This document shows positions 9,682-53,315 of a stretch of DNA of 64,000 bases, one piece after another. Source of the stretch: Terriglobia bacterium (lineage in GTDB: Bacteria; Acidobacteriota; Terriglobia; Bryobacterales; Bryobacteraceae); assembly GCA_020073145.1 (NCBI GenBank), contig JAIQFS010000008.1, forward strand, positions 1-64,000, given 5' to 3'. The position numbers and the translations under genes are program-made. The number at the start of each line of letters is the position of its first letter. The first letter of the stretch is position 1. The notes under the pieces are model-generated. The model searched no databases and was not told the DNA's origin. It saw nothing but the letters and a program-made list of their open reading frames with translations.

Positions 9682-9716
9682 CGCGGCTGTGTTTTTCGCC
9701 TTGTCTTCGCCTGCGC

Positions 9717-9722
9717 TACACT
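9717..9722 (+). promoter_or_regulatory. -10 element (TACACT) 7 nt before the addB start codon
   Basis: TACACT ends at 9722 and the addB ATG begins at 9730. Transcription would normally start about 7 nt after a -10, that is on the A of the ATG. No Shine-Dalgarno sequence exists in the 7-nt gap, so a leaderless mRNA is the simplest reading. Confidence 0.55.
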
Positions 9723-9729
9723 AAACCCA

Positions 9730-37973: not shown

Positions 37974-38627
37974 GTGGCATCCGTTCCGCTCCTCCGTCAA
38001 GCCGCCCCCGCGGTTCCAGTCGCTTCGCCCGCCGCCGACTTCTGGGAAAGATTGGCCTCCGCCGCGGCGTTGATCGCGGTGAGTCCGGTGTTGTGCGCGA
38101 GTGCGGCGACGCTGGCGATCCTATCGGGACGCAGCCCGCTCATCGCCCACCGCCGCGTTGGCTGGCACGGCTCCGACCTGTGGATGCTGAAGCTGCGAAC
38201 GATGTGGGACCGCGACAGTGGCCCCCATTCCGGCTGGATCGAGTACATCGATGACGAAACCGGCCCTCTCCGCAAACACGACCGGGACCCGCGCGTTCCC
38301 AGCGCCTTCGCCCGTTTCTGCCGGCGCCATTCCATCGATGAGTTGCCGCAGTTGATCCACGTCATCCGCGGCGAGATGTCGCTGGTCGGTCCGCGCCCCC
38401 TGACCGCCCGCGAATTGCGCAGCCATTACGGCCCGGATGCGGAGGAGGTCCTCGAAGCCAAGCCCGGCATCGCCGGCCTCTGGCAGGTCTCCGGACGCAA
38501 CCGCCTCACCTACGCCGAGCGCCGGGAGTTCGACTTGCAGTTGGTGCGCGCCCGTTCTCTCCGAATGGTTCTGCGGATTCTGTTCCGCACCGTGGCTGAA
38601 GTCTGGACCGGCGCCAACTCCTGGTAG
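37974..38627 (+). CDS. Sugar transferase (undecaprenyl-phosphate glycosyl-1-phosphate transferase)
   Basis: 217 aa. It would load the first sugar phosphate onto undecaprenyl phosphate to start a surface polysaccharide unit. Family motifs: SPLIAHRRVGWHG and MLKLRTM, RRHSIDELPQL, GEMSLVGPRPL and KPGIAGLWQVSGRN. One N-terminal membrane segment (about 28-50), so it is the short PglC/WbaP-C-type form without the extra N-terminal helices of WcaJ. GTG start with GAGGTAGGT upstream. First gene of the polysaccharide locus. Confidence 0.9.
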   Translation: MASVPLLRQAAPAVPVASPAADFWERLASAAALIAVSPVLCASAATLAILSGRSPLIAHRRVGWHGSDLWMLKLRTMWDRDSGPHSGWIEYIDDETGPLRKHDRDPRVPSAFARFCRRHSIDELPQLIHVIRGEMSLVGPRPLTARELRSHYGPDAEEVLEAKPGIAGLWQVSGRNRLTYAERREFDLQLVRARSLRMVLRILFRTVAEVWTGANSW

Positions 38628-38678: not shown

Positions 38679-40205
38679 CTATTGACCCGCTAACGGCGTC
38701 GCGTCCGGCAGATCGCCCGGAGGCAGCGACGAGAACACCGGGAAGTCTTCGGCGTTGATCGCCAGGCTCAGGATCGGCACCGTCGAGGTCACCTCCACCG
38801 AACCGTTGAAGCTCGGCAACCCCAGGAGCGAGGAAACCAGCTGCGATCCGTGCGCATTCGGCGCCAGTTGGAAGCTCGTGCTGCCCAGAACCGTTCCCGT
38901 CGTATCGAGCGCCGTGATCGTCACCGTCGCGGCTTGCGCCGACGGGTTCCCGTACGTCACCCCCGTCAGCGTCTGCCCAAAGGTCACGAACTCGGTGGCC
39001 GGAGCCGTCACGGCGTTCACCGCCGCTTCTCCCTGCGGCACGCCATTACTGTAGAAGCGGAAGATCAGGCTGGCCTTCACCGGCTGGGTGCATTGCGCCA
39101 CGGCCCAGCCTCCCACGTTGGCGGAGTTCGCAGCGGCTTGCGATTCCTGGTGGAGGTCCTCACCCGGTCCCAGAATGTCGGTTCGCGTGGTAACGGCGGC
39201 GGCTCCGCCAAACGGAATCGCCAGAGGCGCCCCCGTGTCCCCAAAGAACGAAGTCTGGCAGCTCATGCTCTGCTGCCCATAGTTCACGATCGTCAGCGTG
39301 GTCTGCCACCCGCCGCCCAGAGCCAGGTGCGGAAAGTAGTACGTGTTGGTCGGCGCGCCCGACACCGGGTTCGGATCTCCTGTTCCAAACGACAGCGGCG
39401 TCCCATCCGGCAAATCGCCCGGAGGCAGCGAGGAGAAGACCGGAAAGTCTTCCGCATTGATCGACAGGCTCAGAATCGGAACCGTCGAAGTCACCTGCAC
39501 CGAACCGGTGAAACTGGCCAACCCCAGCAGTGACGAGACCAACTGCGACCCATGCTGTCCCGGCGGCAGTTGGATGGTCGTGCTGCCCAGAGGCGTCCCC
39601 GGGCCCGTGTTCTGCGCCTGAATGGTGACGGTAGCTGTTTGCGTGGAGGGGTTCGCGTACGTCACCCCCGTCAGCGTCTGGGCAAAGGTCACGAACACGG
39701 TGGACGGCGCCGTCACCGCGTTGACCCCCGCCTCTCCCTGCGGCTTGCCGTTACTGTAGAAGCGGAAGATCAGGCTGGCCTTGACCGGCCCGGTGCATTG
39801 CCCCTCCGCCCAGCCTCCCACGTTGGCGGAGTTGGGATCGGCCTGCGATTCCTGATGCAGGCTCTGCCCCGGTCCCAAGAGGTCGGTTCGCGTGGAAGCC
39901 GTCCCTCCACTGAACGGAACCAGCAGCGGATTGCCGTTGTCCCCCGTGAAGGTGGTCTGGCAGCTGACACTCACCTTCGAATAGTTCACATACGTCAGCG
40001 TGGTCTGCCAGCCGCCGCCCAGAGCCAGATGAGGAAAGTAGTAGGTGTTGGAAACGGGCGTCGTATCCGCTTGCGCGAGGTTTGAGGCGAGCTGGCCGCC
40101 GAAGATCGAAGTATAAGTTCGTTGCCGTGCGGCCGGAGCCGTCTGGCCGTATGCCGCAACTGTCCCACTCAAGATAACAAGTGTTAACAGGAAAGAAGTC
40201 CTCAC
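38679..40205 (-). CDS. Secreted protein made of two near-identical repeats
   Basis: 508 aa. Signal peptide MRTSFLLTLVILSGTVAAYG. The mature protein is two tandem copies of a domain of about 225 residues. Each starts NTYYFPHLALGGGWQTTLT and contains KASLIFRFYSNG followed by NAVTAP. Each ends in SINAEDFPVFSSLPPGDLPD or its near-match AINAED. Each copy has one Cys pair. The copies are similar enough at DNA level to suggest recent duplication or gene conversion. The beta-rich, Ser/Thr/Gly-rich composition suggests a cell-surface or matrix protein. No family was recognised. It is convergent with the sugar transferase. Confidence 0.75.
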   Translation of the reverse strand: MRTSFLLTLVILSGTVAAYGQTAPAARQRTYTSIFGGQLASNLAQADTTPVSNTYYFPHLALGGGWQTTLTYVNYSKVSVSCQTTFTGDNGNPLLVPFSGGTASTRTDLLGPGQSLHQESQADPNSANVGGWAEGQCTGPVKASLIFRFYSNGKPQGEAGVNAVTAPSTVFVTFAQTLTGVTYANPSTQTATVTIQAQNTGPGTPLGSTTIQLPPGQHGSQLVSSLLGLASFTGSVQVTSTVPILSLSINAEDFPVFSSLPPGDLPDGTPLSFGTGDPNPVSGAPTNTYYFPHLALGGGWQTTLTIVNYGQQSMSCQTSFFGDTGAPLAIPFGGAAAVTTRTDILGPGEDLHQESQAAANSANVGGWAVAQCTQPVKASLIFRFYSNGVPQGEAAVNAVTAPATEFVTFGQTLTGVTYGNPSAQAATVTITALDTTGTVLGSTSFQLAPNAHGSQLVSSLLGLPSFNGSVEVTSTVPILSLAINAEDFPVFSSLPPGDLPDATPLAGQ

Positions 40206-40269: not shown

Positions 40270-42108
40270 TTACTTTTGCGCAAGCCGTGGTTGTACGGTG
40301 TTTAACTCCGCGCGCATCTCGTCCAGGGTGCGAGCGACTTCGGGATGCTTGCCGCCGTCGAGTGCCGCGGCCAAAGCCGCTTCGCGCCGGGCTTCCTCCA
40401 TGCGCCCTTGCACTTGCAGGACTTGCGCCAGAGTCCAGTGCGGCTTGAACCAGTTCGGATAGGCGCGGATGGCCGCCCGCAGGCTGCGCTCGACGCATGG
40501 GCCGTCTTCGCGGCTGCCGCAAAAGACGGCCAGGTTGTACCACGCGTTAAAGGGATCCTCCGCGGTTTGGGTGGCGCTCACCGCCGCCGTACTGGCTTCG
40601 CGGAGGGCGGCCGCCCGGGTCTGCGGGTTGGGCGATTCGGACGCCAGCGCGAGCGCTGCGCGCGCGTACCAGAGGTCGCCGGTTCCGCCCGGCAGGTGCA
40701 GCCTCTCGTACTGTTGAAACTGCGCGGCGGCATAGGACACATCGCCGCGATCGAGCCCGTCCTTGGCCGACGCCAGCGCGGAATCGGCGGCCGCCAGCCG
40801 GGCGGCGCAATACAGAAGACCCGCGGCCACCACGGTCGCGCCCGCGGCCCATGAGCGAGACCGCCGGAGGGTCACGGCCGGAGTCTTCACCGCGACCACC
40901 AGACCCAGCGTCACGAAGAGCAGGAGCGCCGTCGGGACCGTGAACGAAGTGAACTGCTGGCTGACCACGCCGGCCGCCAGCGCGCCGGCGAGCGCCGGCA
41001 GCTTCCAGCGGAGGGCGGCCGCGAATCCCAACCCACAGAGCGCGGCCAACACCAGCAGGCCCGGCACTCCCTGCGCCACCAGCGTGTCGAGAAACATGTT
41101 GTGCGGCGACTCGTGCGCAAAGTCGGGAAACGACTGCGCCAGCGTGGCCGATTCGTACTGCGGGAACTCGGCGGTAAACACTTCCGGTCCATATCCGGCC
41201 GCCAGCCGGTGAGAGGCCATGTGCACGCTATCGCGCCAGAGATCGAGGCGGGCGCCGCCCCGGGCATCTTCCGCAAACCACCGGGCGCGGCTGCGCAATT
41301 GCTGACCGGGCGGCGCGTAATAGAAGATCGCTCCGGCCAGAATCGCCGCGCCCGCCAACGCCAAGGTGCGGCGCGTGACCTGGATTCTCCCCACGGCAAT
41401 CCAGACGACGCCGCCGGCCGCCAGGCCCAGCAGGGCCGCGCGCGTACCTGTCATCACCATGGCGCATCCGGCCAGCAACGACGCGGTCTCAGCGACTCGC
41501 CGCCACGCCGTGGATGTTTCCATGGTCCGCAGGTGTAGGCTGAGAAACACCACGAACAGCAGCCATGTGGCGAAGTAGCTGGCATACCCCAACGTTCCGG
41601 GCGGCCGGACGATGGTCCAGATCCCCTCGCCGACGTGATAGCTGGCGGCCGGCAGAAACGGGTCGGCACCCAGGTATTGGCCGATTCCGTACAGCGCGGT
41701 GGCCGCGCCGGCCCCGGTCACTCCGCGCAGAAGAGTGCGGACGCGCTCGGGCCGGCCGGCGCATCCCACAGCGATGGACCAGCTGAAAAGGCAAACTGCC
41801 AGTTGAATTACGCTGCCCGAGCGCCTCCAATTCGTGCCGAAGAGCGAGAATGCCGGCTGCGCGGACAGCGCCGTCGAGACCGCGAGCGACGCCGCATTCA
41901 AAAGAAGCAGAACCGAGAAAGCGGTCAGGACCTTTCGCGAGCGGTCCGGCAAGGACACGGGGATTCCCGAGAATGCCATCCACAACAGAACCGCGCCGGT
42001 CCCCGCCAGCAGCACGACGATCTTGGGAGTAACATCGAAGTAAAATGAGTAGCCAGGCGCGATAATTAACGCGAGTAGTGCGACCACGGCGGCCTGGAGA
42101 CGGGACAT
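40270..42108 (-). CDS. O-antigen ligase/polymerase-like membrane protein with C-terminal TPR region
   Basis: 612 aa. About 12 membrane helices cover residues 1-440. A large periplasmic loop of the Wzy_C type carries ESPHNMFLDTLVAQGVPGLL, the usual conserved His region. The C-terminal 170 residues are soluble TPR-like helices (DVSYAAAQFQQYERL, NAWYNLAVFCGSREDG). It probably polymerises or ligates polysaccharide repeat units at the periplasmic face. It is transcribed divergently from wzz, with only 27 bp between the starts. Confidence 0.8.
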   Translation of the reverse strand: MSRLQAAVVALLALIIAPGYSFYFDVTPKIVVLLAGTGAVLLWMAFSGIPVSLPDRSRKVLTAFSVLLLLNAASLAVSTALSAQPAFSLFGTNWRRSGSVIQLAVCLFSWSIAVGCAGRPERVRTLLRGVTGAGAATALYGIGQYLGADPFLPAASYHVGEGIWTIVRPPGTLGYASYFATWLLFVVFLSLHLRTMETSTAWRRVAETASLLAGCAMVMTGTRAALLGLAAGGVVWIAVGRIQVTRRTLALAGAAILAGAIFYYAPPGQQLRSRARWFAEDARGGARLDLWRDSVHMASHRLAAGYGPEVFTAEFPQYESATLAQSFPDFAHESPHNMFLDTLVAQGVPGLLVLAALCGLGFAAALRWKLPALAGALAAGVVSQQFTSFTVPTALLLFVTLGLVVAVKTPAVTLRRSRSWAAGATVVAAGLLYCAARLAAADSALASAKDGLDRGDVSYAAAQFQQYERLHLPGGTGDLWYARAALALASESPNPQTRAAALREASTAAVSATQTAEDPFNAWYNLAVFCGSREDGPCVERSLRAAIRAYPNWFKPHWTLAQVLQVQGRMEEARREAALAAALDGGKHPEVARTLDEMRAELNTVQPRLAQK

Positions 42109-42135: not shown

Positions 42136-42960
42136 ATGGCGGACGCGTCAGATGGATTTCGTTACATTCGTTACGTCCGGCTGCGATGGCGGTTCGTCGC
42201 CGCGAGTTGCCTGATCGCAGTGGCATTCGCAGGCGCGGTGAGCCTGGCGCTGCCGCGAGAGTATACAGCCACCGCACGAATCGTGATTGAACCTCCAGCC
42301 GGCGCGGATCCGCGCTCGGCCACGGCGGTGAGCGCCGTCTATCTCGAATCCCTGAAAACGTACGAACAGTTCGCTGGCAACGACAGCCTGTTTCAGAAAG
42401 CAGCCGGCCGCTTTCAGCTCCGCGCGCTGCTGGGCGCCCGCTCGATCGAATCCATCAAGAAGAGTGTACTGAGGGTGGGGATGATTCGCAATACGCGGAT
42501 CCTGGAGATCGCGGCAACGCTACCGGATCCGGCGCGGGCGCAAGCCCTCGTCCAGTTTCTGGCGGAGGAAGCGGTCCGGCTGAACCGGTCGCTGACCGCG
42601 GAAAGCGAGCGCGACCTCATCCAGGGGATCGAGCAGCAGGAGCGCGAAGCCCGCGCGCATCTGGCGCAGGACGGCGAAAAGCGTGATGGCACGGCGGGGG
42701 CCGCGGACGCCATCGACACCCAACTGCGCGAAGGTCGCAACGACGTTGGCTATCGCGGCGAGCGCCTGAGCATCATCGACCCGGGCGTGGTGCCGGAGCA
42801 GCCGTCTTCTCCCGACGTCCCGATGAACCTGGCCGCGGCTCTTGTGCTCGGTCTGCTGCTGCCGGCGGTCTATCTCGCGCTTGCGCTGGGTTTCCAGCAG
42901 CAGCGCGCGGAATCGCGGCGCGGCGGGCTGCAGACACTGTACAAGACCGGCGATGAATAG
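42136..42960 (+). CDS. Wzz-like polysaccharide chain-length protein
   Basis: 274 aa. Two membrane helices (about 17-40 and 235-258) flank a periplasmic domain, the standard Wzz topology. The Pro-rich stretch before TM2 (VVPEQPSSPDVPMN) fits the family. The helical hairpin is shorter than in enterobacterial Wzz, and there is no fused tyrosine kinase. It sets the length of the polymer made by the neighbouring Wzy-like proteins. Its stop overlaps the next gene's ATG by 8 nt. Confidence 0.75.
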   Translation: MADASDGFRYIRYVRLRWRFVAASCLIAVAFAGAVSLALPREYTATARIVIEPPAGADPRSATAVSAVYLESLKTYEQFAGNDSLFQKAAGRFQLRALLGARSIESIKKSVLRVGMIRNTRILEIAATLPDPARAQALVQFLAEEAVRLNRSLTAESERDLIQGIEQQEREARAHLAQDGEKRDGTAGAADAIDTQLREGRNDVGYRGERLSIIDPGVVPEQPSSPDVPMNLAAALVLGLLLPAVYLALALGFQQQRAESRRGGLQTLYKTGDE

Positions 42961-44353
42961 CGCGCTCTACCCGCAAGTCCGGTGGCGCTGGAGCATACCG
43001 GTCCTGCTGGGCGCCTGGGCGGCGGCCGTGGCGGTGGCTCCGAGTTTGTCTCTGAAGCTGCTGCTGGCCGTACCGGCGGTTCTGCTTCCGGTTTCCTTCT
43101 GGACGCTCGAAACGCCGGGCCGCTGGATTCCGTGCTTCTTCGCCGCGGCACTCCTGCTCCCGCCGCTCCCCTTCGCTTGGGGAGACTCGGGGCCTCATCC
43201 GAGTCTGTGGTTTGCCGGGCTCGGCTTACTGGCCGGGCTGCTGGGATTGCCACGCTGGCGCGTCCGTGTCACGGGATTGAACGCCGCGTTGGGCACGCTC
43301 CTGGTTGTGTTGCTGGCGAGTGTGGCTCCCGCCGCCATCGATTCCGGCGCCGCCATCGCCGCCGCAAGCCTGGCGCGCGTGGGGCTGTTGGCCATCGCGG
43401 TCTACATTTTCTTCTACACGGCCCAGGGCCCGGCGCCGGCCTCGCCTCCCTTCCCGGCGATCCGCAGGCTCTACTGGATTGCGGCTGCTTCCGCCCTTTT
43501 CGCCTGTATCGATTTCTACTTTCAGTTCCCCGCTCCCGCGGGCTACGGCCCGCAATTCGTCTGGCTCGATACGGCCATCGTCCGGCGCGCGCAAGGCGTA
43601 TTCTACGAAGCCAGCACGCTGGGAAATTTTTGCGCGTTCTTCCTGGTGATGATCGCGGTGTGCTGGTCGCGCCCGCGCGAGCAAGCCCCGGTTTCGCGCA
43701 AAGCCCTGCTGGCCGGCGGCGCGGTGTTCTTCACGGCGCTGGTTCTCTCGTACTCGCGGGCGTCGCTGGTGAATGTCGCGGTGGCCGGGGCGGTGCTCGG
43801 GTGGCGCAGCCGCCGGCGGTTTTCTATGGTAAAGCTGGTGCTGATGGCGGCGGCATGCGCGGCGGCCGGCGCGCTCCTGACGTGGGCCCTATTCCCCGCG
43901 CTGGCCGAGGCGTACTGGCTGCGCCTCTCGGCTTCCGCCACGTATCTGTTTTCCAGCACCGAGGGCGTGCTGTCGGGCCGGGTGGCGAGCTGGCGGACGC
44001 TGGTGGACTGGATGGGCGCTCACCCCTGGCAGACGTTGTGGGGCATCGGCTACAAGACGCTGCCGTACAGCGATCATCTGGGCGCGCCGCTGGTGGCCGA
44101 CAACATGTACCTCAGCCTGCTGGTGGAGACCGGCGTCGCCGGGCTGGGCGCGCTGCTTTGGTTGAATGGCGCGATTCTGCGCGCGGCGTGGCGGGCCTCG
44201 CGGTCCACCGCGATCGAAACCTCGTTCTGCGGAACGTGGATGCTGTGCTTCTGGGCGGGACAGACGGTGCAGATGCTTTCGGGCGATCTGCTCACCTACT
44301 GGCGCGTGCTGCCGGTGTACTTCTGGGTGCTGGCGCTCGCGGTACGCGCGTGA
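42953..44353 (+). CDS. O-antigen ligase/polymerase-like membrane protein
   Basis: 466 aa from the ATG at 42953, overlapping the wzz end; an earlier in-frame start (42842) lies within wzz. About 11 membrane helices. The periplasmic loop includes LSGRVASWRTLVDWMGAHP and ADNMYLSLLVETGVAGLG, the Wzy_C signature. Early motif YEASTLGNFCAFF and SYSRASLVN also fit. It is the second Wzy/WaaL-like protein in the locus; one may polymerise and the other ligate. The stop overlaps the next gene (GTGA). Confidence 0.8.
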   Translation: MNSALYPQVRWRWSIPVLLGAWAAAVAVAPSLSLKLLLAVPAVLLPVSFWTLETPGRWIPCFFAAALLLPPLPFAWGDSGPHPSLWFAGLGLLAGLLGLPRWRVRVTGLNAALGTLLVVLLASVAPAAIDSGAAIAAASLARVGLLAIAVYIFFYTAQGPAPASPPFPAIRRLYWIAAASALFACIDFYFQFPAPAGYGPQFVWLDTAIVRRAQGVFYEASTLGNFCAFFLVMIAVCWSRPREQAPVSRKALLAGGAVFFTALVLSYSRASLVNVAVAGAVLGWRSRRRFSMVKLVLMAAACAAAGALLTWALFPALAEAYWLRLSASATYLFSSTEGVLSGRVASWRTLVDWMGAHPWQTLWGIGYKTLPYSDHLGAPLVADNMYLSLLVETGVAGLGALLWLNGAILRAAWRASRSTAIETSFCGTWMLCFWAGQTVQMLSGDLLTYWRVLPVYFWVLALAVRA

Positions 44354-45495
44354 GAGTCCTGATTCTCGACCAGTTTAGCGAACCCGGGGGGGCGCAGCAG
44401 GAGTTGCTGCAGATGCTGGAAGCCGGGCGCGCGCGGGGCTGGGACGCGCGGGTCGGACTGCCGGGCGAAGGCGCGCTCTTCGGGAGCGCGCAGGCTCTGG
44501 GATGCGAGACGTTCCGCATTTCGTGCGGCCCGTATTCGCTGGGGCACAAGTCGGCGGCCGACATGGCGCGCTTCGTGCGGCAACTGCCCGCCGCCGCGGG
44601 TCAGATCCGCCGCCGCGCCCGCGAGTTCCGGCCGGATCTTCTTTACCTCAACGGCCCGCGCGTGCTGCCCGCCGCGGCCTTGGCCGGTCTGGGAATTCCG
44701 GCGTTGTTTCACTCGCACAGTTATGTGCCTCCGGGTATGACGCGCGAGATGGCAGGCCGGGCGCTCCGCCGACTGGGCGCCAACGTTGTGGCGTGCTGCG
44801 GCTTTGTGGGGCAGCCCTGGGAGCGGTTTGTGGCGCGGGACCGGGTGTCGGTGATCTTCAACGGCGTGGCTGGGCCGGACGAACCGGTCTTCCACTGGAA
44901 CCCCGGCGCGCCCAAGATCGGATGCATCGGGCGGATCTCTCCGGAAAAAGGCCAACTGGAGTTCATCGAGGCGGCCCGCCGGATTCACACGGCGCTACCG
45001 CAGAGCCGCTTTGCGATTTATGGGGCGCCCTTGTTCTCGAACGAGGCCGCGCGGTACGCCGACCGGGTGCGGGCGGCGGCCGGATCGCTGCCGGTCGAGT
45101 TTGCCGGCTGGACCGTCGACGTCTACCAGGTGCTGTCGGGTCTCGATTTGTTGCTGGTCCCGTCAGGGCGGCAGGAAGCGACCACCCGCGTGATCCTGGA
45201 AGCCTTTGCCGCCGGCGTGCCGGCGATCGCGTTCCGGGCGGGCGGCATTCCGGAAGTGGTGGAGGACGGCCGCACGGGATTCCTGGTGGATTCCGCGCGG
45301 GAGATGGCGGAGTGCGCGCTCACCTTGCTCTCCGGCGATCCCGCGCGCATGTGTGCGGTTTCTCAGGCCGCGCGGGAGAGCTGGTGCGCCCGCTTCACTC
45401 TGGAGCACTACCAGCAGCAACTACTGGCAGCGCTGGAGGCTGCCGCACGGTCTTCGGATCTGCCAGCAAGGCGCGAAGCAGACCGGCGGAAGTGA
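44350..45495 (+). CDS. Glycosyltransferase family 4 protein
   Basis: 381 aa from a GTG that overlaps the ligase stop. GT-B fold: the N-terminal Rossmann begins VRVLILDQFSEPGGAQQELL with the GG loop. The hinge is IGCIGRISPEKGQLEFIEAA. The nucleotide-sugar site has PSGRQEATTRVILEAFAAGVP and the following AGGIPEVVEDGRTG. It adds a sugar to the lipid-linked repeat unit on the cytosolic side. Its 3' end overlaps the convergent nucleotidyltransferase-MFS gene by about 100 bp, an unusually long tail-to-tail overlap. Confidence 0.88.
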   Translation: MRVLILDQFSEPGGAQQELLQMLEAGRARGWDARVGLPGEGALFGSAQALGCETFRISCGPYSLGHKSAADMARFVRQLPAAAGQIRRRAREFRPDLLYLNGPRVLPAAALAGLGIPALFHSHSYVPPGMTREMAGRALRRLGANVVACCGFVGQPWERFVARDRVSVIFNGVAGPDEPVFHWNPGAPKIGCIGRISPEKGQLEFIEAARRIHTALPQSRFAIYGAPLFSNEAARYADRVRAAAGSLPVEFAGWTVDVYQVLSGLDLLLVPSGRQEATTRVILEAFAAGVPAIAFRAGGIPEVVEDGRTGFLVDSAREMAECALTLLSGDPARMCAVSQAARESWCARFTLEHYQQQLLAALEAAARSSDLPARREADRRK

Positions 45496-47785
45496 CCGCG
45501 AGCGCCGCCGCACCCGCCAGCACCACCCCGTACCCAAACCGGGCCAGGAGTTGGCCCGCGCCGAACGCGGCGAGGGCCTGGGCCGAGAACCCCACCAGGT
45601 AGGTGAGCGCGGAAGCGCCGCCGCGCTCGTCTTCCGCCACGCGGTTCATCAGCAGGGTGTTCATACCGGGCTCGCTCATCCATTGGAACGACATGTAGGC
45701 GGCGTAGACCAGCACGGCCGCGCCGCCCGGCGGCTGCGCGCCCAGACCGCCGAGGCCCAGCGCGGTGGCGGCCATCATCCCCACGATTCCGTTCAATAAG
45801 CCAGCGCGGCGAATCACCCAGGGCGCCAGCAGGACGGTTGCGACCTGCACCAGCTGCGATCCCGAGAACACGTTACCAATGCGCTCGACGGAGAAGCCCA
45901 GGCGCGCGAAGTAGACGTTGTTGAACGGATTGAACGCGCCGGTGGCCAGCTGCCAGATGGCGAACGGGATCAGGAAGCGCAGTAGAAATCCGCTGCGCGG
46001 GTAGACGCGGGCGCGCTCGCGCGCGGGCCGAGGCGGCGCTCGGAGCCGCAGCGCGGGCAGGACCGCGAGAGCCGTCAGCGCCGCGGAGACGAGCAGGACC
46101 GTCTGTTTCCCGTGCAGCCACAGCGGCAAGCGCCCGCCCAGCCAGTTGCCCACAATGCCGGTAGCGAACATGGTGGCGAAGAATACGCTGAAGGCGGTGG
46201 GCCGCAGTTTCTCGCTGACGGCGCCGGCAATCATAGGGGTCAGCAGGACGGCCCAAACCGAGAAGATGGCGCCGCTCAGAAAAGCCAGGCCGGCGAGCGG
46301 GAGCCGCGCTCCGATGACGGCGCGGAACACTTCAATCACCGCGGTTGCCGCGAAGGTGGCAAGCAACGTGTTGCGCATGCCGAAGCGGCGCGCCAGATAG
46401 GCGGCGGGGAGCGTACCGGCCACGCTGCCCACGCGCGAAGCCCCGTTGATGATGCCCAGGAAGTCCTCGCGGAAGCCGAGGTCCAGCAGAAACAGGTTGT
46501 AGAGCAGGACGAAGATGAACAGGGCGAAGTTGAACAGCACGGCGGCGCCGAGAAAGATCCAGAACTGCTCGCCCAGGCGGTTGGTATGCCACCACCAGCG
46601 CGCGCCGGAGAGGGCGGCGCGCGGCAGGGCGAGGGCATGGTGGCGGAGCCGCGACCGGGCGTAGGCGGCCCCTCCCGCGGCCGGCCGGTTCAAGGGCAAG
46701 AGCCGCCGCCGCGCGACGCTCCAGGCATCGGCACGGGAGTCCAACAGGCTGAGGTGGAGCCACAACTCCTCTTTGTTGGGATGGAAGGGGGAGGTGGCGG
46801 GCGCTGTGGCGAATCGGGCAAACCAGTCTTGGGAGTCCGCCGGCAACTCTTCGATGGCCTCGGCGGCAATCGGGTGCAGGCGGCACCCGAACCACTCTGC
46901 GGCCAGGCGGAAGATGACGGCTTCGAGACGCCGCAGCCCGGGATGGTGGAGTGCGCGCCACTCGCTCCACCACGCGGCGTCTTCGGCGCGCGCCTGGAGG
47001 AGGCTGGCGATCTCGTACACGTGGAAGGGGCTCACGCTGCCGCGGAGCAAGTGGCGGAGGGCATGAAGCGCGGCATAGCCGAGCGCGTCGGCCGGATGAA
47101 GCACGCCGATCTCGATGCCGGCGATGCGGCGGGTGGCGCGGCGGTCCCAGAACCGACCCACGCCGGGCGCGGGCAGACGCTCCAGCCGGTCATTCCAGAA
47201 CTGAAAATGGAGCTCGACGCTGAGTGGGATGTCGACATCGAAGAAATCGCCGCGCCACGACCAAGCGGTTTTACGAACGAGCACCGGCAGGTGGTCGGTG
47301 GGGAAGCGCTCCATGTCTTCGGCGGACTCGTATCCCGCGGCCAGCAGAGCGTCGCGCGCCGCGTAGATGCCGCCGGGAGGAAGGAAGAGGTCGATGTCAT
47401 ACTGCACGCGCTCTTCGGGCCGCCCGCCGAAGAGGGCGCTATGAGTGAGGCCTTTCAAGGCTACGAATTCCGCGCCGGCAGCGGCGAGCCGGCTTGCGAG
47501 TTCGCGGTAGGTTTCTTCCGTGCGCGCCAGCCGTTCGAGGTTGCCGGCGGCATCGCGATCGAGGCGCTCGCGAACCCAGGGCGGCAAGGCGCCGAATGCC
47601 CGGCTGCGCAGGGCGAGGGTCAGCCGCGAGCGGTCGCAGAAGTCGAGGGCCTCGCGCCACTCCGGTTCGGTGAGGCGGCCAAGCGCCTCCACGCGGGGTT
47701 CGGCGAGATGCAGCGCCGCCAGGGCCGCCGCCGCGCCCGGCGGCAGCTTGTTGCAATTCGGCCAGGGGTTCGGCACCGCAGTCAC
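45395..47785 (-). CDS. Nucleotidyltransferase-family domain fused to an MFS transporter
   Basis: 796 aa. Residues 1 to about 380 match the uncharacterised nucleotidyltransferase family (NTP_transf_5 type): KGLTHSALFGG with K111, the acidic DIDLF pair D130/D132, then VDIPLSVELHFQFW. From about 405 to 780 there are 12 hydrophobic helices with the MFS loop motif AAYLARRFGMRN between helices 2 and 3. Both halves lie in one uninterrupted frame. NTP_transf_5 proteins elsewhere occur near HprK-like kinases in peptide-modification and polysaccharide loci, and such a kinase lies at 51134. A fusion to a transporter is unfamiliar to me. GTG start. Confidence 0.75.
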   Translation of the reverse strand: MTAVPNPWPNCNKLPPGAAAALAALHLAEPRVEALGRLTEPEWREALDFCDRSRLTLALRSRAFGALPPWVRERLDRDAAGNLERLARTEETYRELASRLAAAGAEFVALKGLTHSALFGGRPEERVQYDIDLFLPPGGIYAARDALLAAGYESAEDMERFPTDHLPVLVRKTAWSWRGDFFDVDIPLSVELHFQFWNDRLERLPAPGVGRFWDRRATRRIAGIEIGVLHPADALGYAALHALRHLLRGSVSPFHVYEIASLLQARAEDAAWWSEWRALHHPGLRRLEAVIFRLAAEWFGCRLHPIAAEAIEELPADSQDWFARFATAPATSPFHPNKEELWLHLSLLDSRADAWSVARRRLLPLNRPAAGGAAYARSRLRHHALALPRAALSGARWWWHTNRLGEQFWIFLGAAVLFNFALFIFVLLYNLFLLDLGFREDFLGIINGASRVGSVAGTLPAAYLARRFGMRNTLLATFAATAVIEVFRAVIGARLPLAGLAFLSGAIFSVWAVLLTPMIAGAVSEKLRPTAFSVFFATMFATGIVGNWLGGRLPLWLHGKQTVLLVSAALTALAVLPALRLRAPPRPARERARVYPRSGFLLRFLIPFAIWQLATGAFNPFNNVYFARLGFSVERIGNVFSGSQLVQVATVLLAPWVIRRAGLLNGIVGMMAATALGLGGLGAQPPGGAAVLVYAAYMSFQWMSEPGMNTLLMNRVAEDERGGASALTYLVGFSAQALAAFGAGQLLARFGYGVVLAGAAALAVTSAGLLRALLADPKTVRQPPALPVVAAGSAPE

Positions 47786-47938
47786 GGTTTCACCGCCGAG
47801 GCGCGGAGGCGCCGCGAAAACCTCGCCGGGGAGCGGACTTTTCCCTGAGGGCGCAGAGGAGGCAGGGAGCGCGGAGCGAGACCTCGCTTCGATTCCCGGC
47901 GGCTCTGCGAATCGGTGGAACGTCGTCCATGCGTCGGT

Positions 47939-50900
47939 CTAGAAATCGTACCGCAGAGCGAACTGCATGCGCCGAGGGGCGCCGGAGGTGAGGATCTGGC
48001 CAAAGAACGGGCCGAAGTCGGGATTGGGCACGGGAATTCCCCAGTTCGGATGGTTGAAGGTGTTGAAGGTCTCGGCCCGGAACTGCAAGGTCTGGCCCTC
48101 GCGAACGCGGAACCGGCGCTGCAGGGCGAGGTCGAAGATGTTGTTGCCGGGGCCCAGGATGGTGTCGCGCCCTGCATTGCCGAAGGTGAAGGGCGCGGGG
48201 GCGGTGAAGGCCGCGGTGTTAAAGAAGTGGCCGGCGGTCTGCTGGTCGCGCGGCAGCGCGACGCTCTGGCCGGGAACCAGGTCGGGGCGGTTGGGCGTGC
48301 CGGAGTTGGCGATGTCCAGGCCGAAGTAGAAGGGGTTCTCGGGTGTCCCGTCTTGCAGGGTCACGGTGCCGCTCACCGACCAGCGGCGCAACAGGGGGCC
48401 GGCGAAGCGCGCGTCCGGCAGCGCGTAGACGTAGCCGGCGCTGACGCGCCGTCCGGGATTGTCGAACGAGAGACCGCGCTCGAGCCGCAGGTTCCGCTCA
48501 TCCTGGGCGCCGACGCTATCGAACAAGCCGGGAATGACGCTATCGGCGTCATCGATGGACTTGGACCACACGAAGCTGGCGAGCAGCGAGAACCGGCTCG
48601 ACAGGTTCTTCTCCACCTTCACCTGCAGCGAGTTGTAGGACGAATTGGCGATGTGCTGGCGTTGAATGATTTTGCCGAGCGAGGGGAAGGTGCGGAGGGA
48701 TTGCAGGTCGCCGGGGCGCGGCGGCAGGTTCTCCCCGGTCTCGACATGGGCGGTCGTGTTGAACTGGCGGTAGCGCCCGAGCTTGGTTCCCTTCGAACCG
48801 AGGTAAGCGACTTCCAGCAGCATGCGGCCGGGAAGCTCGCGCTGCAGGCTGGCGTTCCACTGCTGCACGTAGGGGGTTTGCGCGTGCGGGTCAACGCCGA
48901 AATAGCTGGGGAATCCGGTGGCCGCGGTTTTCGGGAAACCGTCGCGCGTGGTCAGGACGGGCGCGTTGGCGCCTTGCGTTTCGTTGACTTCGTTGAGCAA
49001 GCCGTTGAGGAGCAGGTCGTAGCTTTCGACGGCGATTTCGGAATTGAAGTAGACACCGTAGCCGGCGCGGAACACAAAGAGCTTAGGCACACGCCAGGCC
49101 AGCCCCACCCGCGGCGCGAAGTTGTTGCGGTCCGGGGCGGTGGCGGAGCTGACGGGCACGAGGCGGGGCGGGCCGGGCAGGGTGGAATAGTCGAGGTTGA
49201 GCAGCTTGCCGCGCGCCTCGGTATACGGCGCGGCGTATTCGTAGCGCAGGCCCAGGTTGAGAGTGAGGCTGGGGCTGAGCCGCCAGTCGTCCTGGACATA
49301 GGCGGCGGAAACGCTTTGCCGCAGATAGGCCTGACCGGATCCGCTGGTGCGGGTGGTTTCCTGGGGAAAGCCGAGCAGGAAGTCGGCGAAGGGATCGCCG
49401 CTGTTGATCCCCGAACCATCCGCGCTGGTGAAGACGCCGGTGTAGGTGTATTGGCCGCGGGTCAGGTTGCTCTGCAAGTAGTTCAACTGGAAATGCAGAA
49501 GGTCTCCGCCGAATTTGAGGGTGTGGCGTCCGCGGACGAGCGAGAGGCCGTCGGAAGCCTGCCACAGGTTGTCGCGCTGCACCTGGGGAAGGGACGGGGA
49601 ATCCGTGACCATGGAATAGTTGGTGACGTTGAAGTAGGGGAGGCCGAAGCTGAAGGGATCGGTGGGCGGCTGGGCCAGGCCGAGTTGCTGCGCCACATTG
49701 ACGCGGAAGGCGGTTTCCGGCACGTCGAACAGGCGGAGGCGGGTGAAGGAGAAGCGCGTCTGGTTGATCCACGCGGTTCCGCTGGCCGTGTACGAGAGGG
49801 CTGCCTGTTGCGCGCGCACCTGCTCGGAGGTGGGCAGCAGCGGGAACGAGCCGGCCACGCGATTGCTCTCGCCATTGAAGGTGTAGCGGGCCGTGAAGGA
49901 TCTGTGATTGGCGAACTGGTGGTCGATGCGGCCGGAGGCGCTGTCGTTGGGATAGTCGTTGGGGGTAGCGTCGCGGTAGTTGCCGCCGGCGCTATTGGGG
50001 AGCGGTTCGTACTGCGCCAGGAATTTGGTGGCGATGGGGTCGATGCGGGTCTGGGGAATCTGGTTGTTGGCAAAGGGGGTGCGCGCGCCGGTGGCGGAGT
50101 CGAGGCTGAGCGGATCGTAGATGGGGGTCTGGGCGAAACTGCCGCCGCGCGTGGTCTGGTCCGGCACCAGGGCGAGGGCCGAGGTTCCGGAGTTCTGCCG
50201 CTGCCCTTCGTAGATTCCGTAGAAGAAGGTGTTCGGCAAGACGGGAAGGGGGCCGCCCAGGGAAGCGCCGAACTGGTTCTGGCGAAAGATGGGGCGCGGC
50301 AGGGCGGGGTCGTCGAAGAAGTTGCGGGCGTCGGTGGCCTCGTTGGAGAAGTACTCGAACGCGCTGCCATGGAAGGCCTTGGTGCCGGACTTGGTGACCA
50401 CGTCGATGGCGCCGCCGCCGGCTTGGGGAAACTCGGCGGGGGCGAGCGAAGACTGGATATGAAATTCCTGCACCGAATCCATGGGCGGATAGACCGCGAT
50501 GGCGAAGGTGTTGCGGTCGGTATCGTAAGCGCCATCGAGCACGAAGGCATTCATGGTGGAACGGGCGCCGTTGATGGGGGGGTTGAGGGCGACGGAGCCG
50601 CGGGAGCCTTCCTGGATGTCGTTGTTGACGTCGTGCACGAAGCCGCCGAGCTGGCGCGGGATGGCGCCGGGGCCGAGGGTGACGAGCGAAACGACGTTGC
50701 GGGAGGCCAGGGGCAGGTCGGCGATTTTGGAGTTGTCCAGGCGATACCCCACGGAAGCGTCTTCGGTATTGACGGGGGAGACGGCGGCAGCCACGGTGAC
50801 GCGCTCCTGGCTGGATCCCACGGCCAGCCGGATCTCCTGGCGGGCCGTCTGGTTGACTTCCAGGGCGAGCCCGTCCGCCTGGTAATCGCGGAATCCCGAC

Positions 50901-51130
50901 TTGCGCGCGCTGAGGGTATAGGTTCCCGGAGCGAGATCGCTCAACACGAAAGCGCCGCGCGCATCGGTGACGGTGGCGCGGGAGAAGCCGGTGGCCGCTT
51001 GTGCCGCCACCACTGCGGCTCCGGCGACGGCGGCGGAAGATTCATCGGTGACGGTTCCGGCAAGCGTTGCCGAGGACACCTGGGCGGACACAACCGCGGC
51101 GAAGGAGAGCAGCAAGAGTACCAGTTTCAT
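47939..51130 (-). CDS. Oar-like TonB-dependent outer-membrane receptor
   Basis: 1063 aa. The signal peptide MKLVLLLLSFAAVVSAQ is followed by a carboxypeptidase-regulatory beta-sandwich (about 20-100, LAGTVTDESSAAVAGAAVV; LAPGTYTLSARKSGF). A plug domain (about 110-240) and a long beta-barrel follow, ending in MQFALRYDF with terminal Phe. This architecture is greatly expanded in acidobacteria and related to myxobacterial Oar. It probably imports or secretes a polymer or peptide. It starts 3 nt after the HprK-like gene and is certainly co-transcribed with it. Confidence 0.88.
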   Translation of the reverse strand: MKLVLLLLSFAAVVSAQVSSATLAGTVTDESSAAVAGAAVVAAQAATGFSRATVTDARGAFVLSDLAPGTYTLSARKSGFRDYQADGLALEVNQTARQEIRLAVGSSQERVTVAAAVSPVNTEDASVGYRLDNSKIADLPLASRNVVSLVTLGPGAIPRQLGGFVHDVNNDIQEGSRGSVALNPPINGARSTMNAFVLDGAYDTDRNTFAIAVYPPMDSVQEFHIQSSLAPAEFPQAGGGAIDVVTKSGTKAFHGSAFEYFSNEATDARNFFDDPALPRPIFRQNQFGASLGGPLPVLPNTFFYGIYEGQRQNSGTSALALVPDQTTRGGSFAQTPIYDPLSLDSATGARTPFANNQIPQTRIDPIATKFLAQYEPLPNSAGGNYRDATPNDYPNDSASGRIDHQFANHRSFTARYTFNGESNRVAGSFPLLPTSEQVRAQQAALSYTASGTAWINQTRFSFTRLRLFDVPETAFRVNVAQQLGLAQPPTDPFSFGLPYFNVTNYSMVTDSPSLPQVQRDNLWQASDGLSLVRGRHTLKFGGDLLHFQLNYLQSNLTRGQYTYTGVFTSADGSGINSGDPFADFLLGFPQETTRTSGSGQAYLRQSVSAAYVQDDWRLSPSLTLNLGLRYEYAAPYTEARGKLLNLDYSTLPGPPRLVPVSSATAPDRNNFAPRVGLAWRVPKLFVFRAGYGVYFNSEIAVESYDLLLNGLLNEVNETQGANAPVLTTRDGFPKTAATGFPSYFGVDPHAQTPYVQQWNASLQRELPGRMLLEVAYLGSKGTKLGRYRQFNTTAHVETGENLPPRPGDLQSLRTFPSLGKIIQRQHIANSSYNSLQVKVEKNLSSRFSLLASFVWSKSIDDADSVIPGLFDSVGAQDERNLRLERGLSFDNPGRRVSAGYVYALPDARFAGPLLRRWSVSGTVTLQDGTPENPFYFGLDIANSGTPNRPDLVPGQSVALPRDQQTAGHFFNTAAFTAPAPFTFGNAGRDTILGPGNNIFDLALQRRFRVREGQTLQFRAETFNTFNHPNWGIPVPNPDFGPFFGQILTSGAPRRMQFALRYDF

Positions 51131-51133
51131 GAA

Positions 51134-52108
51134 TTATTCCAAGAGATGGGAGAGGAGCTCGATTCCCTCGCCCAGGGACCGATACCGCAGGCGATAGGAG
51201 GGCACGGCGCTCAGCCGTTCGAGGGTGCGTTGGCGAACGGCGTCGACTTCATCGCCGTAAGACGGGGAATCGCGCAACAGAGAATCGACGGCGGCGGACG
51301 GCGGCATTGCCTCGGCGCGGGCGGCACCGTCGCTGTGGCGGTCGAGAAAAACCAGGCAGCGGACGGGGCAGCGGGTCGCGGTCTGAATGCGCGGGAATTG
51401 GCCGAGCGGAAGTTCCATGGCGAGCTTGCCATTGGGGCGAGCGCGCTCCGCCCAGCCGGCCAGTTCCGGGAACAGCAGCGGCGCGTCGCCCCGCAAACGA
51501 ATTTGCCGCGACTTGCCGAGCGCCATCCGGTCACCGGACTCGGGCAGCAGCCAAGTGCAGTCGTCGGCGATATAGGTCCAGCCCACGCGAGCGCAGGCGA
51601 AGGAGAGGGTGCTCTTTCCGGCGCCCGATGGCCCGCAGAGGAGCGCCCCCGAGCCGTTTCGGGCCACGCACGCAGCGTGCACCGGCACCAGATAGCGCTG
51701 GGCCAGCAGCGTGTAGCCCAGCGACTCGATAAAGAACCAGCGCAGCCACGCGTGGTCGGCAGCGGTCTGCGACGAGACGCAGACGTAGGCGAACAAGGAC
51801 TGGAGGTCCGCGACGGCGAAATTGTCAGGGTCGGAAACCACGGAGTAAAGATGGCCTTGGCTGCGGAAGGACGGTTGGGGCGCCAGGACGCCGTCGGGCC
51901 GGACGATGACGCGCATTTCGATGGGGGGGCGGTCGAATTGGAGCGAGTCAGGCCCCCAGCATTCGGCGACCGCGTCGATCACCTCGCGCGAGTTGGTGGC
52001 CAGATTGAGTCGAAAACCCAACGGGTAGTGGGCGGCCCGGAGAGGGAGATCGAGGTGACGTAGCAACGGATCCAACAGGCTCATTTCCAGGCCCGGCGAT
52101 TTCCCCAT
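51134..52108 (-). CDS. HPr-kinase-like protein (HprK-related kinase)
   Basis: 324 aa. The kinase core has H144 in VPVHAACVARNG, Walker A GPSGAGKST at 159-167, and IADDCTWL with D182/D183, as in the catalytic domain of HPr kinase/phosphorylase. The N-terminal 130 residues differ from HprK and resemble the extra domain of HprK-related kinases found beside PqqD-like chaperones and NTP_transf_5 proteins. No PqqD-like gene or HPr is seen here. In peptide loci such kinases phosphorylate a precursor; the substrate here is unknown. First gene of a unit with the Oar receptor. Confidence 0.8.
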   Translation of the reverse strand: MGKSPGLEMSLLDPLLRHLDLPLRAAHYPLGFRLNLATNSREVIDAVAECWGPDSLQFDRPPIEMRVIVRPDGVLAPQPSFRSQGHLYSVVSDPDNFAVADLQSLFAYVCVSSQTAADHAWLRWFFIESLGYTLLAQRYLVPVHAACVARNGSGALLCGPSGAGKSTLSFACARVGWTYIADDCTWLLPESGDRMALGKSRQIRLRGDAPLLFPELAGWAERARPNGKLAMELPLGQFPRIQTATRCPVRCLVFLDRHSDGAARAEAMPPSAAVDSLLRDSPSYGDEVDAVRQRTLERLSAVPSYRLRYRSLGEGIELLSHLLE

Positions 52109-52202: not shown

Positions 52203-53315
52203 ATGCGCGTCGCTTTGGTGCACTATTGGCTGCTCCGCCGCCGCGGCGGGGAGAAGGTGCTGGAGGCCCTGTGCCGCCTGCTGCCCGATGCCGACATTTT
52301 CACCCTGTTTTGCGATCCGGCCTCTCTCAGCCCGGAGTTGCAAGCGCACCGCATCACTACGTCGTTTCTGAATCCGCTCCGCCGCCATCATCGGGCGCTG
52401 CTGCCGCTGATGCCGATGGCCCTGGAGAGCTTCGATCTGCGCGGCTACGATCTGGTCATCAGCAGTGAATCGGGCCCGGCCAAGGGGGTTCTGTTACCCT
52501 CCACGACGCAGCACATCTGCTACTGCCACACGCCCATGCGGTACTTGTGGGAGCTGTATCCGGCGTATCGGAACGAGTATGTCTCGTCGCGGGCGAAACG
52601 GGCGCTGATGATGCCGCTCACGAACTACCTGCGGTTGTGGGATTTTGCATCAGCCGCCCGGGTAGACCGGTTCCTGGCCAACAGTGAGAACGTCCGCAAC
52701 CGGATCTGGAAGACCTACCGGCGGGAGTCGGAAGTCATTCATCCCCCGGTGGATGTGGACGCATTCACGTGGAAGCCGGCGGAGGACTATTTTCTGATTG
52801 TTTCGGAACTGGTTCCGTACAAGCGGATCGATACGGCGGTTCGTTTGTTCGCCCAGACGGGGCGGCGGCTGATTGTGGTGGGGGGAGGCCCGGAGTACCG
52901 CAAGCTGAAAGCACTGGCGACGCCCAACATCGAGTTCGCGGGGCGAGTGCCGGACGAGGTGCTCCGCGAACTCTACGCGCGGTGCCGGGCTCTGCTGCTG
53001 CCGGGCGAGGAAGATTTCGGAATTACGCCAGTGGAAGCGCTGGCCAGCGGCAAGGCGGTGATCGCGCAGGGGCGGGGCGGCGTCCGGGAGAGTGTGCCGG
53101 CGGGGCATCCGTGCGGCGGAATCTTCTATGACTCGCCCGACGAAGTGGGACTTGCCGAAGGGTTGGATGAGTTTGAGCGTATGGAACCACACATTCGACC
53201 GGCGGATCTGCAGCGATACGCCCGCCGATTTTCGCAACAAGAATTTGACCGGAAGATGAGCGCTACTCTCAACCTGCCGGCGCCCTTCCCGTCGGGCATC
53301 GTTGCAACCCCATAA
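52203..53315 (+). CDS. Glycosyltransferase family 4 protein
   Basis: 370 aa GT-B enzyme. N-terminal LVHYWLLRRRGGEKVLEAL is typical of a mannosyltransferase-like subgroup that also has CYCHTPMRYLWELY. The C-terminal half has VSELVPYKRIDTAV, LIVVGGGPEYRKL, and the nucleotide-sugar motif PGEEDFGITPVEALASGKAV. It is transcribed away from the HprK-Oar unit, about 94 bp apart. It probably adds mannose or a related sugar in the same polysaccharide pathway; the donor cannot be assigned by eye. Confidence 0.88.
   Translation: MRVALVHYWLLRRRGGEKVLEALCRLLPDADIFTLFCDPASLSPELQAHRITTSFLNPLRRHHRALLPLMPMALESFDLRGYDLVISSESGPAKGVLLPSTTQHICYCHTPMRYLWELYPAYRNEYVSSRAKRALMMPLTNYLRLWDFASAARVDRFLANSENVRNRIWKTYRRESEVIHPPVDVDAFTWKPAEDYFLIVSELVPYKRIDTAVRLFAQTGRRLIVVGGGPEYRKLKALATPNIEFAGRVPDEVLRELYARCRALLLPGEEDFGITPVEALASGKAVIAQGRGGVRESVPAGHPCGGIFYDSPDEVGLAEGLDEFERMEPHIRPADLQRYARRFSQQEFDRKMSATLNLPAPFPSGIVATP

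Follow-up and report, generated by a model that had tools for sequence, protein, structure and literature searches.

The window analysed here is the 64,000-nt stretch at positions 1–64,000 of contig JAIQFS010000008.1 (our contig C18) in the 6.3-Mb, 88-contig genome of a Terriglobia bacterium (assembly GCA_020073145.1). On its minus strand lie, in this order, genes for a kinase resembling HPr kinase (HprK-like), an outer membrane protein of the Oar type, and a fusion protein in which an NTP_transf_5 nucleotidyltransferase (hereafter NTP) runs on into a transporter of the major facilitator superfamily (MFS). The intergenic gaps are 3 bp between the HprK-like and Oar genes and 153 bp between the Oar gene and the fusion. 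Genes were called with a home-made codon-usage script, and their starts are approximate. The parts of the set are as follows.

45395..47785, minus strand: fusion of NTP_transf_5 (aa 1–372) and a 12-helix MFS transporter (aa ~403–775), 796 aa, with a GTG start (Pfam, AlphaFold2)
46598..47785, minus strand: NTP domain of the fusion (aa 1–396), with a Pol-beta-like nucleotidyltransferase fold (AlphaFold2 of the domain alone, structure alignment)
45398..46600, minus strand: MFS part of the fusion (aa 396–796; MFS_1, Foldseek)
47939..51130, minus strand: Oar-type TonB-dependent-receptor-like outer membrane protein, the locus-specific ortholog (OMP_b-brl_4 and CarboxypepD_reg)
51134..52108, minus strand: HPr-kinase-like P-loop kinase, with Walker A at residues 159–166 and conserved D182 and D183 (weak Hpr_kinase_C and HprK_rel_A matches)

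Both halves of the fusion scored above their Pfam cut-offs: NTP_transf_5 (PF14907) at aa 41–300 with an E-value of 6e-30 (105 bits against 31.2), and MFS_1 (PF07690), the only MFS family to pass its cut-off, at aa 412–739 with an E-value of 5e-19 (68.8 bits against 33.4). K111, R126, D130, and D132 were invariant in 16 of 16 aligned fusions, and the K, R, and D-x-D of the NTP domain, which we take to be catalytic, were invariant in all 42 NTP proteins compared, whether from genomes of the MFS type or from those of the radical-SAM (rSAM) type described below. When residues specific to either group were sought, position 250 alone passed the shuffle limit. The AlphaFold2 model of the whole fusion (mean pLDDT 90.7, pTM 0.81) shows a 12-helix MFS fold in the second half and a helix at residues 373–402 that connects the two domains, and the NTP domain modelled alone reached a pLDDT of 92.2. 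The first-pass annotation, which had described a 796-aa frame joining an NTP_transf_5 enzyme (K111, D130, and D132) to a 12-helix transporter and had called for the join to be modelled, is therefore borne out.

In structure alignments (VIA-align Z), the NTP domain was closest to ANT(2'')-Ia (10.9), MenT1 (10.7), LnuA (9.1), and FKRP (8.4), with which it shares a fold at a low identity of ~10–17%; a Foldseek search with the domain returned nothing at E ≤ 0.001. The modelled fold would fit nucleotidyl or phospho-alditol transfer, and a common fold alone shows no function. For the MFS part, the best Foldseek matches were DgoT, G6PT, SPNS2, and VMAT, and a profile search against the PDB gave one weak match, OCT2 (E = 0.005). 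Because the fold matches mix importers and exporters, no direction of transport was read from the fold. The N-terminus of MFS proteins is cytoplasmic; therefore, the NTP domain is expected on the cytoplasmic side, at the mouth of the transporter.

Relatives were sought with the fusion in a set of 151 genomes that included this one (up to six candidates scored in each) and in a second sample of 396 genomes across the phylum (up to two candidates scored in each), and were found in 41 and 14 genomes, respectively. The fusion loci in named records came from Acidobacteriota metagenome-assembled genomes, many of them Bryobacterales or Bryobacteraceae. After removal of duplicates, 56 NTP rows were tabulated, many of which are cut by contig ends. 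These comprised 31 distinct one-frame fusions, this one included (two truncated by contig ends), and four rows in which MFS is encoded separately, at most three genes from NTP; at three loci (L052, L066, and L111 in our numbering) the NTP and MFS genes are unfused neighbours. Homologues are thus not always separate genes, and the fused frames together with the unfused pairs rule out that the join results from misassembly or a frameshift, a concern that had been raised at the outset.

The kinase carries the Walker A sequence GPSGAGKS from residue 159. Across 37 sequences, K165 was conserved in all, D182 in 36, and D183 in 34; Walker A and the following Asp-Asp are presumably the motifs of the kinase core. 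The protein scored below the cut-offs for HPr kinase/phosphorylase (PF07475, 21.2 against 33.3 bits; TIGR00679, 20 against 240 bits), and its best NCBIfam matches, HprK_rel_A (TIGR04352, 44.9 against 200 bits) and the SynChlorMet kinase (TIGR04249, 32.7 against 125 bits), were also far below theirs. TIGR04352 systems have a PqqD partner, whereas the set described here has none. A search of PDB sequences gave one chance-level P-loop match (E = 0.076). Double-length HprK-like proteins of ~676–707 aa were seen at L069 (7063–9186), L070 (7558–9588), and L071 (7447–9480), the first two with weak second P-loop-like matches near residues 500–576, and a tandem pair of HprK-like genes precedes Oar at L046 (894–3033).

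In the Oar protein, both domains expected of Oar (PF25183) were found, the carboxypeptidase-regulatory domain with 69.8 bits and OMP_b-brl_4 with 711.8 bits, which bears out the first-pass annotation of an Oar-type receptor encoded on the same strand as an HPr-kinase-like protein; a search of PDB sequences gave no match to the receptor. The host genome holds 55 Oar-like matches, of which the second-best copy scored 303 bits. We compared 53 genomes, namely 40 of the 41 matched in the 151-genome search (the weak G131 was left out), eight from the phylum-wide sample (the weak G280, G337, and G479 were left out), and five reached via loci, and scored up to 14 Oar candidates in each. Orthologs of the locus copy scored 773–1854 bits, with an additional 730-bit fragment in an already counted genome, and every other copy listed scored 549 bits or less, which leaves a gap between the two. 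These orthologs occurred in 20 of the 35 genomes with MFS versus none of the 18 without it. Of 34 MFS loci, 27 had an Oar-like gene (>200 bits) no more than three genes away, versus 0 of 18 loci without MFS; for these counts, two short NTP pieces were dropped, and one locus of indeterminate MFS state and one of indeterminate Oar state were not counted. At the non-MFS locus L064, an Oar-like gene of 121 bits lies four genes off.

The association was also tested on phylogenetic trees. Nine independent pairs differing in MFS on an IQ-TREE tree gave 7.4 changes in the same direction and none in the opposite one (p = 0.0156; p = 0.0625 on an earlier quick tree). A second Oar lineage, from another family of the same class (f11), scored 976–1264 bits to the L111 copy; in six of eight fetched stretches it was next to HprK-MFS or no more than a few kb away, in two of these on the other strand. 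Furthermore, in one Pyrinomonadaceae genome the Oar ortholog adjoins an MFS gene with no similar NTP, although other NTP_transf_5 genes are present. MFS and Oar thus travel together, which makes a transport route across two membranes plausible; this much of the two-membrane export pathway first proposed stands, whereas its other part, export of a finished product, is unsupported. In L045 (8925–12134, genome G070), the Oar gene adjacent to the fusion is interrupted by one in-frame stop.

The order HprK-Oar-fusion is recurrent, and the genes are tightly packed. The spacing between HprK-like and Oar genes was exactly −4 bp (an overlap) in 9 of 16 pairs, that from Oar to the fusion had a median of 5.5 bp (22 pairs), and that between HprK-like and NTP genes was −4 bp in 7 of 14 pairs; an HprK-like gene lay within three genes of NTP in 40 of the 56 rows. 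The linkage of the three genes, first noticed in this window, is therefore conserved in relatives. In the f11 family the set is unfused, for example as NTP_transf_5-Oar-HprK-MFS in L132, and in G111 it is split, with Oar-NTP in an exopolysaccharide (EPS) locus (L142) and HprK-MFS on a different contig (L140). Since the same four parts recur fused, separate, or dispersed, we argue that they act together, and this is our main argument.

Many loci without MFS instead contain a cluster in which several B12-binding radical-SAM proteins are encoded together with methyltransferases, an amidohydrolase, and a SPASM radical-SAM protein. This cluster was present in 11 of 19 loci without MFS versus 0 of 34 with it; it is linked to HprK-NTP at, for example, L099 (85–9980), L060 (11162–19915), and L057 (74–3755). 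Whole-genome searches of the 53 genomes, in which the MFS part counted as MFS and one cluster member at E ≤ 1e−50 as rSAM, gave 33 genomes with MFS only, 16 with rSAM only, two with both (G398 and G152), and two with neither (G053 and G091, 84% and 81% complete), a near-exclusive distribution (Fisher 1.4e−9, uncorrected for kinship). The rSAM member is fragmented in G010 and reaches only 273 bits in G152, and other rSAM-type genes adjoin the NTP of G091 (L055). A tree of 43 NTP loci, from genomes with NTP called in the fetched stretch (without G090, G091, G111, G398, G530, G542, G374, and G462), carried 26 loci with MFS only, 16 with rSAM only, none with both, and one with neither, and implied 10–11 switches. 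Seven independent pairs on this tree gave six opposite changes and one without difference (p = 0.031). Three of the loci (L093, L096, and L111) were obtained from a scan that in part targeted MFS; excluding them, the counts were 23, 16, 0, and 1. In some genomes, such as G079, G038, and G071, the rSAM match lies on a different contig than NTP, and the alternation is therefore not merely one of two gene orders.

A transport module thus replaces a biosynthetic-looking one while the kinase and NTP stay unchanged, and this most simply means a second supply of the same substrate. The first-pass annotation had cast the transporter as an exporter, but the near-exclusive distribution fits import of a substrate better, without proving import. 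In the corresponding export scheme, HprK and NTP would modify a glycan, a lipid-linked sugar, or a small molecule, which the MFS domain would export and Oar would release or pass across the outer membrane. The tethering of NTP at the transporter and the association of MFS with Oar would suit such a scheme, as would the requirement of Oar for PopC secretion in Myxococcus, described in the accessible part of one report (PMC6434023). However, it leaves unexplained why the transport module alternates with the biosynthetic-looking rSAM cluster rather than accompanying it, and some other reason for the alternation would have to be found; we consider it somewhat unlikely, though it is the chief competitor of the explanation that we favour.

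The surroundings of the fusion are an EPS locus, with the following six genes.

37974..38627, plus strand: initiating sugar-phosphate transferase (Bac_transf; PF02397, 140.9 bits)
40270..42108, minus strand: second Wzy_C protein (Wzy2; PF04932)
42136..42960, plus strand: Wzz chain-length determinant (PF02706)
42953..44353, plus strand: Wzy/O-antigen-ligase-like protein (Wzy1; PF04932 on the longer frame 42842–44353, start from the codon-usage script)
44350..45495, plus strand: GT4 glycosyltransferase (GTa; profile match, conserved neighbour), convergent with the fusion gene and overlapping its 3' end by ~100 bp
52203..53315, plus strand: GT4 glycosyltransferase (GTb; profile match, conserved neighbour), divergent from the HprK-like gene

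Two or more of the EPS genes GTa, Wzy1, and Wzz lay within eight genes of NTP in 29 of the 56 rows, and HprK-NTP was also found with EPS genes at loci that lack Oar and MFS (e.g., L057, L061, and L067). The latter loci count against the idea that the kinase and NTP control the uptake of nutrients through Oar and MFS, in a catabolite-like fashion and with the EPS linkage as a secondary matter. The name of the HprK family, a conceivable role of Oar and MFS in carbohydrate uptake, and the 27 of 56 rows without EPS genes within eight genes would speak for such control; with the HPr kinase family cut-offs also not reached, we regard it as very improbable. In another scheme, the MFS domain would be the flippase for EPS repeat units, which the NTP domain merely regulates or decorates. 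EPS genes do adjoin the fusion, and neither a MurJ nor a Polysacc_synt match was found on contig C18 of the host genome. On the other hand, a MurJ-like gene lies directly upstream of HprK in five MFS-fusion loci (Pfam MurJ checked on the L042 copy), EPS loci without MFS exist, and G462 has a Polysacc_synt gene close to the set (L144), so that this scheme is improbable; a role as the sole flippase, replacing MurJ or Wzx, is disfavoured by the five loci that hold both.

Several further genes were seen beside these loci. In L144 (2839–6726, minus strand), a single frame of 1295 aa joins NTP_transf_5 to a Wza-type Poly_export/SLBB protein. Its neighbours are Wzz-like and Polysacc_synt genes, and it represents a second type of NTP fusion linked to EPS; the NTP match also occurs in G374, in an open frame of 1378 aa. 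Two-component system genes and two conserved, unassigned genes (~470–500 and 230–250 aa) lie near the set in L045, L062, L064, L067, and L071, and similarly in L132, whose copies of the two conserved genes had no Pfam match. In the window, positions 38679–40205 (minus strand) encode a 508-aa secreted-looking protein with no Pfam match and two similar halves, in which NTYYFPHLALGGGWQTTLT occurs twice; a shorter relative adjoins Wzy2 in L042, L051, and L091.

The resemblance to peptide-modifying kinase/NTP pairs that was noted from the window held, in that the kinase and NTP resemble the pair of the phosphoglycosylated lasso peptides. According to the available text on pseudomycoidin, a kinase homologue phosphorylates the C-terminal Ser, and PsmN, annotated as a nucleotidyltransferase, adds one or two hexoses there, although a host enzyme could also be involved (PMC9266682, PMC8498205). 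Like PsmK/PsmN, the set combines a nucleotidyltransferase and an HprK-like kinase, PsmN being compared by annotation, and in lasso-peptide systems such proteins are, in the same accessible text, sometimes fused to the partner B2, whereas here the fusion is to MFS (PMC8498205, PMC9266682). The clusters differ further in that the locus here lacks PqqD, B2, a cyclase, and a convincing precursor, and has an Oar partner and EPS neighbours instead. The combination that marks a phosphoglycosylating lasso cluster, with PqqD (B1), a B2 protease, and a precursor linked to the pair, was not found at the fusion locus. Because the PqqD and score tests gave this outcome, we did not place the set in the lasso or HprK_rel_A systems; it is a PqqD-free, transporter-fused variant of the known kinase/nucleotidyltransferase pairing.

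The absence of a PqqD-like chaperone near the set, remarked on at first sight, held in relatives as well. Among 40 genomes searched that carry pieces of the set, 26 have PqqD (PF05402), and none has it on the contig of the set except G012, where it lies 4.5 Mb away; several of the sets are on short contigs, where a linked PqqD gene could have been missed. A search beyond the window did locate a PqqD gene in the host genome, on contig C9, with the lasso protein B2 (74.9 bits against a cut-off of 33), another HprK-like gene, and another NTP_transf_5 gene. The peptide version is therefore a separate system in the same cell, with its own HprK and NTP_transf_5. There, L072 (C9:38001–58000) shows at 7755–10746 consecutive genes for a lasso-type PqqD, a B2 protease, a candidate precursor, an HprK-like kinase, and NTP_transf_5. 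The candidate precursor (8522–8668, 48 aa) has a Y..P.V...G.....T pattern, which we take to be leader-like. No asparagine-synthetase-like C gene was noticed in L072, for which no profile search was made.

The first-pass annotation had also reported no precursor frame in the short gaps. In fact, the 153-bp gap holds a single frame on the operon strand, of 46 aa (47790–47930, minus strand), which is arginine-rich and resembles intergenic sequence; short frames also occur in the gap preceding GTb. The 46-aa frame was not taken for a gene because relatives have little or no room at the same spot, and the tight packing there disfavours a precursor peptide hidden in the operon. Tailoring of a RiPP-like peptide, as in phosphoglycosylated lasso peptides but with an unlinked precursor, thus has the PsmK/PsmN precedent (PMC8498205, PMC9266682, in the portions available), the C9 locus, and the 46-aa frame in its favour; set against the scant room in relatives, the position of PqqD off the contigs of the set, and the fact that the C9 locus owns its kinase and NTP_transf_5, it appears quite improbable. 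A peptide substrate, one of the two kinds first suggested, is accordingly unsupported for this locus, which lacks PqqD, a B2 protease, and a convincing precursor; L072 has such a set.

The explanation that we favour, tentatively and at somewhat less than an even chance, is an EPS-linked relay of uptake and activation. Oar in the outer membrane and the MFS domain in the inner membrane would import into the cytoplasm a small substrate that bears a hydroxyl group, and the HprK-like kinase would phosphorylate it there. NTP_transf_5, anchored where the transporter opens to the cytoplasm, would then join the phosphate to a nucleotide or a sugar, and the polysaccharide machinery would use the activated substrate as a phospho-substituent on the polymer. 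In genomes without MFS, the cluster of B12-radical-SAM proteins, methyltransferases, and amidohydrolase would make the same substrate. The direction of transport, the substrate shared by both genome types, and the order of the chemical steps are what we infer; from the chemistry of the pseudomycoidin kinase and PsmN, we propose that a small substrate meant for EPS is first phosphorylated and then undergoes nucleotidyl or sugar-phosphate transfer. A more far-reaching claim, that the relay supplies a scavenged building block for the phospho-decoration of EPS, is swapped whole for B12-rSAM biosynthesis in sister genomes as a make-or-import switch for a surface substituent, and takes HprK/NTP_transf_5 outside peptide chemistry, is possible, though on the unlikely side.

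Parts of this scheme have precedents. LplT is an MFS protein. As described in the accessible text of one report, it flips lysophospholipid through the inner membrane to be acylated by Aas on the cytoplasmic side, and the two form one open reading frame in some bacteria; there, too, a cytoplasmic transferase is encoded beside a transporter or fused with it (PMC11416262). The enzyme is a different one, Oar and the kinase are lacking, and we claim no sequence relation. The Lic-1 pathway combines choline uptake, a kinase, a cytidylyltransferase, and the transferase LicD, and to our knowledge its kinase and transporter are unrelated to those described here. It shares the logic of uptake, phosphorylation, a nucleotidyl step, and glycan decoration, and the available part of a survey states that phosphorylcholine is supplied by Lic-1 or other pathways, with Lic-1 linked to carbohydrates modified with phosphorylcholine (PMC10434233). 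The outer-membrane Oar is an addition of the set described here.

A number of observations weigh against the favoured relay. The MFS fold is silent on direction, with importers and exporters among its Foldseek matches, and that the rSAM cluster makes the substrate is a guess. The alternation has exceptions: G398 has MFS and rSAM, its MFS lying outside any HprK locus; G152 has both, with rSAM genes (273 bits) adjoining MFS; and at L107 (9959–15215, Methylomirabilota) an MFS homologue stands beside B12-radical-SAM genes. Seven of the 34 MFS loci have no Oar within three genes, and six of the 27 Oar-like neighbours are low-scoring (213–457 bits). Among the 27 rows without EPS genes within eight genes, at least six have at least six genes called on both sides. 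The known relative of the kinase/nucleotidyltransferase pair acts, in the accessible accounts, on a peptide made in the cell (PMC8498205, PMC9266682), and the phosphorylcholine precedent is loose, because alternative pathways pair with different targets, protein versus carbohydrate, in the available part of the survey (PMC10434233).

The favoured relay predicts that both genome types bear the same EPS substituent, for which one would depend on uptake and the other on synthesis. Within the open-access literature searched, an HprK-like kinase with such a nucleotidyltransferase has been tested only in lasso-peptide tailoring. If true, the relay would therefore be a second chemistry for the HprK/nucleotidyltransferase pair, and would tie several unassigned genes of the Acidobacteria into one testable pathway.

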